Source of the DNA: a virus | Length of the DNA stretch: 60,054 bases | Virus record (IMG/VR): IMGVR_UViG_3300032092_000031 | Location: 1 to 60,054 of that record | Direction: 5' to 3' (one strand) | Shown here: positions 39,986 to 49,975 of the stretch, piece after piece | Layout of the letters: the number at the start of each line of letters is the position of its first letter | How positions within the stretch are numbered: the first letter of the stretch is position 1 | Program-made: the position numbers and the translations under genes | Notes under the pieces: model-generated | Told to the model about the DNA's origin: nothing | What the model saw: the letters and a program-made list of their open reading frames with translations, nothing else | The model's database searches: none

Positions 39986-40137
39986 GGATAGTAGGAGGAC
40001 ATAACGCTTGTGCTATATCCTCGTGGCTGCGGTAGACACAGCATTCTTGACATTGGGTTTCCATCTATCCGAAAGTTATAATCCCCATAAAGAATGCAGA
40101 GGGGCTTATGGTTGTGCCAGAACAACCAACTTTTTTT
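39986..40137 (+). ncRNA. Structured non-coding RNA candidate, about 150 nt
   Basis: No gene here. Possible pairings: GGATAG/CTATCC (39986-39991 with 40065-40070) enclosing a well-formed hairpin GAGGA/TCCTC with inner ATA/TAT and GC/GC pairs and loop TTGT (39995-40022). GCATTCTT/AAGAATGC (40041-40048 with 40090-40097) crosses the first stem and would make a pseudoknot; CCCC/GGGG (40083-40086 with 40101-40104) is an alternative. It ends in an intrinsic terminator. No TAnnTTTG element lies directly upstream, so it may be processed from the operon transcript. Confidence 0.5.
40109..40137 (+). terminator. Intrinsic terminator
   Basis: A perfect 7-bp stem TGGTTGT/ACAACCA with loop GCCAGA, followed by AC and seven T. 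It separates the structured RNA element from the gene starting at 40155. Confidence 0.85.
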
Positions 40138-40154
40138 AACTAATAACTATATAT

Positions 40155-40382
40155 ATGAAAAAAATTGTAGGGTATTTATTATGGGCTGTTTTACTTGTGT
40201 TCCTTGTTATAGCTAGGATTCAGGTAAACGATTTAAGGGAACAGAATTCAGACATGTCTAAGGAGTTATTCCATACGCAAGTACTTATATCTAGGTACGC
40301 ACATGGTTTAGAATACCTGGAACTTATTGAACCGAAGGTACATTATAGGGTTATGGAATACATCAGTAATGAAACAGAGTAA
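40155..40382 (+). CDS. Small membrane protein with coiled coil, 75 aa
   Basis: An N-terminal transmembrane helix (IVGYLLWAVLLVFLVIARI) is followed by a helical coiled-coil domain that would face the periplasm. Size and layout resemble an i-spanin, but the lysis genes are elsewhere (54-56 kb), so another membrane role is as likely. The leader is A/T-rich. The stop is 2 bases before the next start. Confidence 0.65.
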   Translation: MKKIVGYLLWAVLLVFLVIARIQVNDLREQNSDMSKELFHTQVLISRYAHGLEYLELIEPKVHYRVMEYISNETE

Positions 40383-47725: not shown

Positions 47726-47995
47726 ATGTCACAAACCAATTACATTAATGGCATCAAATTTGCCAAGTCTAGTCAGTATGGCGTTAAGTTCCTTATTGAT
47801 GTTAAGTTGTTAACAGAAGAGTTAACTAAACTTCAAGATGAGAAGGGCTCTGTAAAAGTTGAATTAAAGAATAGAAAGAGTCCGGATAAGTTCGGCTCTA
47901 ACATGTTCGCTGTTCAAGATACATGGGTTCCAACAAAGTCTGCAACTCAGGAAAGAGTTCCTGTTAAGGAAGCAGATGACGACCTACCATTCTAG
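47726..47995 (+). CDS. Short single-strand DNA-binding-like protein, 89 aa
   Basis: The C-terminus EADDDLPF matches the acidic tip of bacterial SSB (DDDIPF), which recruits replication and repair proteins. The preceding sequence is a compact beta-rich body (YGVKFLIDVKLLTEELTKLQ, then SVKVELKNRKSPDKFGSNMF) that is short for an OB fold but possible. It lies between recombination genes and the primase-helicase, where an SSB is expected. The call rests mainly on the tip and the context. Confidence 0.6.
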   Translation: MSQTNYINGIKFAKSSQYGVKFLIDVKLLTEELTKLQDEKGSVKVELKNRKSPDKFGSNMFAVQDTWVPTKSATQERVPVKEADDDLPF

Positions 47996-48007
47996 AAAAA
48001 AGACCAC

Positions 48008-48083
48008 ACTAGGTGCAGTAAATAATCAATGTAAATTAATTAAATTATTAATCGCGAATTATTTAATGGGAACTGCATCTAGT
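48008..48083 (+). ncRNA. Long stem-loop upstream of the tRNA-like element
   Basis: ACTAGGTGCAGT (48008-48019) pairs with ACTGCATCTAGT (48072-48083) over 12 positions with one G-U. AAATAAT (48020-48026) pairs with ATTATTT (48058-48064), leaving a one-sided bulge AATGGGA and an AT-rich loop. It starts 12 bases after the SSB-like stop and ends 5 bases before the tRNA-like acceptor stem. Confidence 0.6.
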
Positions 48084-48088
48084 TGGCA

Positions 48089-48156
48089 ATCCGGTTAGTT
48101 TAATTGGTAAAACTATTCGTACGGATAAGATATTGGTTCGATTCCAATACCGGATT
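48089..48156 (+). tRNA. tRNA-like element without a normal anticodon loop
   Basis: Acceptor ATCCGGT/ACCGGAT (48089-48095, 48149-48155, perfect). The A-box region is TAGTTTAATTGG with D stem GTTT/AAAC and loop AATTGGTA. The T arm ATTGG-TTCGATT-CCAAT (48132-48148) is perfect and contains the B-box GGTTCGATTCC. Only 18 bases (48114-48131) remain between the D and T arms instead of about 23. They can form a 4-5-bp stem with loop GTAC but no 7-base anticodon loop. No CCA is encoded. Total 68 bases. It is therefore a tRNA-derived mimic or decayed tRNA, placed 16 bases before the primase-helicase start. Confidence 0.7.
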
Positions 48157-48172: not shown

Positions 48173-49975
48173 ATGAACGTCACAGTATTCAAACATTACT
48201 CGGATGTAGGTAATCCAATTTACACATCCGTGGATAACGTATTACATTCCATCAAGACAGGTGGTAAGAATTTAGAACTTATAAATAAGATTAGGAACTC
48301 GGAAGACAAATCCGAGAGAACAGAACTCAAAAAGGAGTTACCGTGTGTATGTTTCGCAGGAGAGTTTAGAAGACCGATAGCTGACTCTGGAAGAGAGTCG
48401 TACAGAAACGATAGGTCGCTTACAAAACACAGCTCATTAGTTCCTATTGATGTTGATTCCATAGACAATGTAGAAGAGTTAAAGGAGGCATTAATGCACG
48501 AGCCTTATGTATACGCATTGTGGACATCATCATCAGGTAGAGGGCTTCATGGTCTAGTTAGAATATCTGACGGCAATAAACATAGAGAGCATTATAGAGC
48601 ACTATGTAAGAAGTTTCCATTCCTAGATACTACTGCACAAAACGAGAGTCGTATTTTATTCCTATCGTATGACCCCGACATTTACATCAATGAGATTGCT
48701 GTTCCTTTTTACGAACTAGAACAAGAAGAGGCTGTTTTTTTTGGAGACGCAATAAACTTGTCGCAAATATCTACTGATTACAGAAAGCTAGATGTAGCTG
48801 CTCGTATGATTAGGAAGGCTCCTGATGGGGAAAAGCATAAAGTTTTATTGTCTGCATCAAATCTTATGGGTGGATATGTTTCTGCCGGAATCATGGAGTA
48901 TGATGTGGCTAGGGAAACATTGATACACGAGATTTCAAAAAGAAATGTAGATGATATATCGTTAGCAAAGAAAACTATTGAAGACGGTTTAAGATTCGGT
49001 ATGACAAGACCTTTAACAGAGGTTAATTCTGAACTGTTAAATGTAGAGCATGACCTTGGTATTATAGACCAAGAGTTATCGTTTCTTTCAGATAACATAG
49101 CTGATGAAGATTACATCTACAAGTTTAAGCATGGCATGATTCCTATGGGTATGCCTTATGGGTATAAAGACCTAGATGAACATTTGCTTCTAAAAGAAGG
49201 AGAGTTCTATGGAATACTTTCTCACGCTAATACCGGAAAGACAACTATCAACTTATGGTTAGCTTTTCTTGCTGCACACAAATACGATTGGGGTTGGTTT
49301 ATATTCTCAGGAGAGAACAAGACCGCATCAATAAAGATGAGGCTAATAGAATATTATACAGGGTACAAGATTAAAGATGTGCCCCAAGATATTTTTGAAG
49401 TCGCTATGAAGTGGGTAAATGATAGATTTTTTATTATGAATAATCTAGATATGGTAACATATAAAGACATATTAAATAACGTCATCACCACAGCTAAATA
49501 TCGTTCAATAAAAGGATTGCTTATAGACCCATACAACTCACTAAGTATGGAGTTAGGTAGAGCAACACAATATGATTACAATGTTAGAGCGTACTCTGAA
49601 ATATTATTATTCACTAAGAAGCATAACATCAGCACATTCCTATCTGTTCATACTAATACTAATGCACAAAGGACTGTTGACAAAGATGGTAACCAACTTC
49701 CACCAAGGGCAGCAGATGCTGAAGGTGGCTCTGTCTTAATGAATAAGACGGACAACTTTATAACTATTCATAGAAATATATATGATGCAGCCACGTGGAT
49801 GAACACGGAAATCTATGTTCACAAGATTAGAAACAAAGACACTGGCGGTAATCCTACGCAGTCGAAGAATCCTATCATCTTAAAGTTAAGAGGTGGAGTT
49901 GAGTTCGTTGACTTGTATGGAGATACGCCTATTAAAAGAATTCCTAAACCAACATCAAAAAATATTCCGTTCTAA
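48173..49975 (+). CDS. Primase-helicase with BT4734-like N-terminus, 600 aa
   Basis: Residues about 50-180 carry the BT4734/VirE-like N-terminal pattern: CFAGEFRR, SSLVPIDVDSIDN and ALWTSSSGRGLHGLVRI, a primase-type domain often fused to helicases in Bacteroidota elements. The C-terminal half is a RecA-type DnaB helicase: Walker A ILSHANTGKTT (about 348-358), Walker B GLLIDPYNS (about 448-456), and a sensor-like FLSVHTNTNAQR. It should unwind and prime phage DNA. No DNA polymerase is encoded nearby, so host polymerase is probably recruited. The preceding gap holds the hairpin and tRNA-like element. Confidence 0.85.
   Translation: MNVTVFKHYSDVGNPIYTSVDNVLHSIKTGGKNLELINKIRNSEDKSERTELKKELPCVCFAGEFRRPIADSGRESYRNDRSLTKHSSLVPIDVDSIDNVEELKEALMHEPYVYALWTSSSGRGLHGLVRISDGNKHREHYRALCKKFPFLDTTAQNESRILFLSYDPDIYINEIAVPFYELEQEEAVFFGDAINLSQISTDYRKLDVAARMIRKAPDGEKHKVLLSASNLMGGYVSAGIMEYDVARETLIHEISKRNVDDISLAKKTIEDGLRFGMTRPLTEVNSELLNVEHDLGIIDQELSFLSDNIADEDYIYKFKHGMIPMGMPYGYKDLDEHLLLKEGEFYGILSHANTGKTTINLWLAFLAAHKYDWGWFIFSGENKTASIKMRLIEYYTGYKIKDVPQDIFEVAMKWVNDRFFIMNNLDMVTYKDILNNVITTAKYRSIKGLLIDPYNSLSMELGRATQYDYNVRAYSEILLFTKKHNISTFLSVHTNTNAQRTVDKDGNQLPPRAADAEGGSVLMNKTDNFITIHRNIYDAATWMNTEIYVHKIRNKDTGGNPTQSKNPIILKLRGGVEFVDLYGDTPIKRIPKPTSKNIPF

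Follow-up and report, generated by a model that had tools for sequence, protein, structure and literature searches.

An anticodon-less tRNA-like element as a possible punctuation signal at the 3′ end of a phage SSB gene

In mitochondria, intergenic tRNAs act as punctuation, their shape defining the ends of the mRNAs. MALAT1 and MENbeta carry small tRNA-like RNAs, mascRNA and menRNA, at their 3′ ends, and RNase P cleavage there gives the upstream RNA its 3′ terminus; mascRNA and menRNA have an acceptor stem, a T arm and a D loop with GG, and a compact loop replaces the anticodon loop (PMC11693755). RNase P and RNase Z recognise the tRNA elbow and measure from it to the cleavage site (PMC11693755), and a hairpin made of the acceptor stem, T stem and T loop suffices as an RNase P substrate (PMC11143913). 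Phage RNAs are cut by host RNase P as well, the described substrates being M3 RNA, C4 antisense RNA and the T4 gene 32 mRNA (PMC11143913); these are not described as anticodon-less cloverleaves that replace terminators, and in the open-licence literature we found no description of such elements in phages. Here we report a tRNA-like element without a usable anticodon loop at positions 48089-48156 (+ strand) of the viral record IMGVR_UViG_3300032092_000031, a stretch of 60,054 nucleotides (nt) that is called the window throughout. The element lies between a gene for a protein resembling single-stranded DNA-binding protein (SSB) on its 5′ side and a primase-helicase gene on its 3′ side, in the same direction as both.

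The Rfam tRNA model (RF00005) matched the window at exactly 48089-48156 with 47.9 bits (gathering score 29) and an E-value of 3.5e-07, computed over the window plus all 4227 Rfam families. This was the only tRNA match in the record; as regards the mascRNA-menRNA family of Rfam, RF00005 gave the top match in the clan, with one lower-scoring match from the same clan besides. In its score and in its acceptor, D and T arms the element agrees with canonical tRNA. The canonical 5-bp anticodon stem, 7-nt loop and U33 are missing, the Rfam alignment lacks the anticodon loop, and ARAGORN called neither a tRNA nor a transfer-messenger RNA (tmRNA) at these positions.

A preliminary description of the locus, made from its letters, had listed a perfect 7-bp acceptor stem, a D arm with GG and a perfect T arm with the loop TTCGATT, and all three are present. 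The 5′ strand of the acceptor stem (48089-48095) pairs with 48149-48155 at seven of seven positions, and the stem can be extended to 8 pairs via A48088-U48156. U48156 stands in the place of the discriminator base and is followed by C48157; U8 and A9 are found between the acceptor and the D arm. The D arm (48098-48113) has a 4-bp stem (GTTT/AAAC, 48098-48101 with 48110-48113) and the GG-bearing loop AATTGGTA, and the T arm (48132-48148) has a 5-bp stem (ATTGG/CCAAT, 48132-48136 with 48144-48148). The shrunken interior (48114-48131) measures 18 nt and, as the same description had it, leaves a 4-base loop: it is best read as U26, a mini-arm ATTC-GTAC-GGAT of 4 bp closed by a loop of 4 nt, and the variable region AAGAT of 5 nt. 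The usual distance between the D and T arms of tRNAs is 22-23 nt; among the scanned phage loci, 236 of the 288 tRNAs whose anticodon arm is normal have this distance. The element resembles phage tRNA genes in its acceptor, U8, D arm, T arm and C at position 74, and true tRNAs of relatives occur in the same neighbourhood; it differs from them in having neither a 5+7+5 anticodon arm nor a 7-nt loop.

The folding energy of the element is unremarkable (z -1.35). The unconstrained minimum-energy fold retains the acceptor stem and loses the D and T arms, and forcing the acceptor and T arm together costs 2 kcal/mol. It is the profile match and the conservation that make the case for the tRNA-like fold, not thermodynamics alone.

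We found the element in eight further IMG/VR contigs, seven of them mostly 92-95% identical to the window here and one 99.98% identical. Across these nine genomes the 68-nt element varies in two columns and has a gap in a third, all three inside the D loop, which reads AATTGGTA, AATGGTA or AACGGCA and always keeps its GG. The D loop of true tRNAs likewise varies in length while retaining GG. None of the nine genomes differs in the short interior, and the acceptor and T stems are intact in every relative, which excludes an assembly error or a private, local deletion. In the adjoining hairpin region, by comparison, 10 columns of about 94 are variable and 5 are gapped. It is worth stressing that the SSB-like gene itself varies slowly (11 of 270 columns), so that conservation within this lineage alone is only moderate evidence. 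With the element as query, blastn on 50,697 phage records returned only chance matches or tRNA fragments.

Further evidence comes from a sister lineage. Relatives were gathered by searches with the primase and with the SSB-like protein, and stand at about 50% and 37% primase identity; an alignment of six SSB-like sequences was too diverse to serve as a query. None of the relatives at about 50% primase identity carries an element before its primase. The sister lineage (L311-L314, L316, L317, L374, L375, L378-L382, L384-L386) carries a different one, TTCGGT...ACCGAA, of 69 nt (71 in L380), located 22-31 nt past the stop codon of the SSB-like gene. The gene on its 3′ side differs, being terminase-like in L311 and a homologue of window positions 50229-50591 in L314. 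Because the element stays behind the SSB-like gene whichever gene comes next, it belongs to the SSB 3′ end, and a tie to the primase is rejected. This corrects the preliminary description, which had placed the element by the primase-helicase that it directly precedes.

Of the four sister haplotypes, three form a cloverleaf in which a 5-bp stem carries the 4-nt loop AUUU. The fourth, L380, has a full-length arm with the loop CGATTAA, which carries G33 and not U33, and ARAGORN calls it tRNA-Asn(att). This arm, full-length though non-canonical, makes descent from a real tRNA likely. L380 is the one sister variant with an arm of full length; the window lineage has none.

Taken over both lineages, 19 pairs in seven haplotypes are paired in 99.2% of cells, and 10 of the 19 have changed on both sides. 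Every cell is paired in the acceptor stem and the T stem, as it is in the D helix. When the partners were slid by 1-3 columns as a control, pairing dropped to 19-53%. Many of the two-sided changes separate the window lineage from the sister lineage; compensation within the sister lineage alone is seen at acceptor columns 7-66, D columns 13-23 and T columns 51-63 and 52-62. Since pairs are compensated across haplotypes and the slid controls collapse, the acceptor/D/T frame is under selection and the anticodon loop is not. This comparison of sequences bears out the earlier suggestion that the fold is kept by selection, and a decayed tRNA with lost acceptor, D and T pairing is not what we see.

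The same junction in other phages is occupied by structures of another kind. At the SSB 3′ junction of L305, L306, L307, L327, L403, L426 and L428 we observed hairpins with T-rich stretches that, by eye, we read as intrinsic terminators. At the SSB-primase junction of the window itself, no intrinsic terminator (a G+C-rich hairpin with a T tract) was found apart from a weak overlapping site at 48079-48098. As a separate observation, in L333, about 620 nt before the primase, an SSB-like gene is followed by a terminator-like hairpin and then by a complete tRNA-Arg. Flavobacterium phage vB_FspP_elemoF_6-3D (L011:8483-8557) has a complete tRNA-Met(CAT) shortly upstream of its replication protein and primase-helicase genes, in the same gene neighbourhood as the window element.

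A second site in the window allows a direct comparison between close phages. At 40110-40137 (+ strand) a terminator-like hairpin, GGTTGTGCCAGAACAACC, is followed by T7 and then by an ATG, and the genomes G003 and G008 have the same hairpin with a T6-T7 tract. In G004 and G006, two near relatives, the hairpin is kept and followed by AACAT or AAAAT, after which a 100- or 114-nt tRNA-like element replaces the T tract; the next ATG comes about 20 nt past it. These two genomes are about 88-94% similar across the neighbouring kilobase. At this site a terminator has naturally been exchanged for a tRNA-like element; the loci concerned are window 40110-40155, L043:106-229 and L048:18525-18662. A conserved non-coding stretch upstream of the site, at about 39,990-40,127, may be a small RNA.

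These comparisons lead us to favour, at somewhat better than even confidence, the reading that the window element is a tRNA-derived punctuation or processing signal that closes the SSB transcript on its 3′ side. It is favoured because the features recognised by RNase P and RNase Z are preserved, because the element is found where messages meet, and because it and terminators replace one another. The acceptor stem, the T arm and the elbow-building GG of the D loop are retained; what is lost is the part needed by the ribosome only. Of the three roles put forward in the preliminary description, a signal for these enzymes between the SSB-like and helicase mRNAs is the best fit to the comparative evidence, and nothing speaks in favour of a replication primer. 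T4 gene 32, whose mRNA is among the RNase P substrates named above, encodes the SSB of T4.

Building on the observed structure, conservation, position and exchange, we infer the following course. SSB and primase would be cotranscribed across the element, host RNase P would cut the cotranscript at about 48088/48089, and RNase Z, or an equivalent 3′ activity, would cut after 48156. The SSB mRNA would then end one or two nt past the hairpin at 48004-48086, and the primase mRNA would begin about 16 nt ahead of its ATG, so that the two messages could have separate stabilities. The excised tRNA-like RNA would probably be a by-product. As to ancestry, a phage tRNA gene probably stood 3′ of SSB, its anticodon arm shrinking once decoding was no longer needed.

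We propose that the element works like mascRNA or mitochondrial punctuation, by analogy and with no claim that it belongs to either. Mitochondrial tRNAs also decode, which the window element cannot do. mascRNA and menRNA belong to eukaryotic nuclear long non-coding RNAs, whereas the window element lies at a phage mRNA boundary, where cleavage would be expected; moreover, its D arm is of normal size and its anticodon arm is shortened rather than lengthened. If the proposal is true, the logic of these systems reaches bacteriophages, and a tRNA shape can end and start mRNAs without decoding. The natural swap pairs, with a terminator or a tRNA-like element at the same site in close phages, make the idea directly testable.

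The tRNA-like elements at the 40.1-kb site belong to a type with a tRNA-Leu-like frame and an expanded, unrelated interior. Their acceptor, AGTCAGG/CCTGACT or near variants, and their T arm are nearly constant, and the interior changes from copy to copy with few exceptions. The family is seen at L127:7183-11500 and about 70 other IMG/VR loci, between small open reading frames (ORFs) of tRNA-rich phages and in up to 9 copies per locus; in GTDB, the strict pattern occurs in four contigs only, all from metagenome-assembled genomes. The sets were gathered by patterns in the T arm plus the D or acceptor arm, so that part of the conservation seen in these segments follows from the way of searching. 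This does not apply to spacing, flanks and interior diversity, nor to acceptor pairing in a set of 128 elements from IMG/VR, for which the tRNA-Leu-like frame pattern left the acceptor out. Among the matches listed in that scan, 108 of the 128 have seven of seven acceptor pairs, with more than 40 different acceptor pairings, and their interiors differ almost every time. The AGTCAGG interiors fold slightly better than shuffled sequences (mean z -0.64, n=158).

Most AGTCAGG elements (120 of 129) overlap no ORF of at least 70 amino acids by more than 30 nt, and 78 of 129 are flanked on both sides by ORFs of the same strand. An ATG that opens an ORF lies 10-29 nt downstream in 54 of 176 elements as against 18 of 201 ordinary tRNAs, and the 16 nt between the window element and its downstream ATG fall in this range. 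In leader and tail (-4 A, -2 A, -1 T, A73, C74) they are similar to the ordinary tRNA genes that share a contig with them. Upstream hairpins are not clearly specific to the class, occurring at 17 of 176 elements, 17 of 524 shifted controls and 19 of 199 ordinary tRNAs. We put forward only tentatively, as a generalisation that may well fail, that tRNA-like RNAs lacking an anticodon form a large class in aquatic phages, so far without annotation, whose members serve as interchangeable substitutes for terminators; in it the acceptor/T-arm frame is kept and the interior is either lost (4-nt loops, as the window element has) or replaced by hypervariable structured inserts. The elements seen here reveal a sizeable RNA family in viral metagenomes that is not annotated, and counts of phage tRNA genes made with covariance models take in non-decoding elements.

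Several points weigh against punctuation as we propose it. The window element, with the leader GGCA, lacks the -1 T(U) and -4 A common in the AGTCAGG class, which weakens the support for punctuation in this element specifically, and it is linked to that class by analogy, not by shown homology. L377, a close relative within the sister lineage, has no element, and the sister lineage lacks the hairpin upstream of it. The terminators in relatives, finally, were read mostly by eye.

The presence of several AGTCAGG copies per contig in tRNA-rich phages would also suit a decoy: host enzymes or defence nucleases binding tRNAs by the acceptor/T-arm half would be kept busy by the excised RNA, and the real tRNAs would be spared. 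We consider this unlikely for the window element, since a decoy does not predict the position at the SSB 3′ end, the exchange with terminators or the spacing before start codons, and in the window phage there is just one copy, with no tRNA besides.

Decidedly improbable, in our view, is a decaying phage tRNA, still present after the loss of its anticodon arm but with no function left. The full-length, non-canonical arm of L380, the intact tRNAs in the same neighbourhood of L333 and the elemo phage, and the absence of the element from L377 agree with it. Without constraint, however, one would not expect acceptor, D and T stems to show compensatory changes within the sister lineage, nor changes in the window lineage to be confined to the D loop.

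The surroundings of the element suggest one more alternative. The SSB-like gene (47726-47995, + strand) has no Pfam match and is recognised by its C-terminal tail DDDLPF, by where it lies and because its product weakly resembles the SSB-like proteins of relatives; the primase-helicase gene (48173-49975, + strand) encodes a BT4734-like N-terminal domain and a weak DnaB_C domain and begins 16 nt past the element. A long imperfect hairpin predicted at 48004-48086 (+ strand) occupies the remainder of the gap and stops 1-2 nt short of the acceptor stem; its outer stem is kept among near relatives and its inner part varies. The whole intergenic region is predicted to be structured, and an alternative hairpin at 48079-48098, CTAGTTGG/CCGGTTAG, could form only at the expense of its two neighbours, the upstream hairpin and the acceptor stem. 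The two hairpins and the tRNA-like fold could be mutually exclusive states of a local switch controlling the primase, for example via SSB or host tRNA-binding proteins. Such a switch is very unlikely: the T tract after the alternative hairpin (TTTAATTGGT) is weak, with 3 such sites found as against 0.8 in shuffled sequences, and in the sister lineage the upstream hairpin is absent and different genes lie downstream. A functional tRNA with an odd loop is rejected because both the 7-nt loop and U33 are missing, and a tmRNA because ARAGORN found none and the 18-nt interior is too small for a tag.

Elements with unusual interiors were noted elsewhere. A scan with a short-interior pattern gave, among the matches listed, mostly chance or ordinary hits, with further short-arm candidates such as L187, L250, L263 and L222. 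By eye, some AGTCAGG interiors resemble H-type pseudoknots (L165, L058). Two odd tRNA-like elements are adjacent at a convergent gene junction of MW202828.1 (L021), one expanded (523-630, 108 nt) and one shortened (637-697, 61 nt); L066, L081, L094 and L119 have the same interior as the expanded one, whose long stem shows paired changes by eye. Additionally, a phage with 36% primase identity has a 115-nt tRNA-like match with an expanded interior (L367:318-432).
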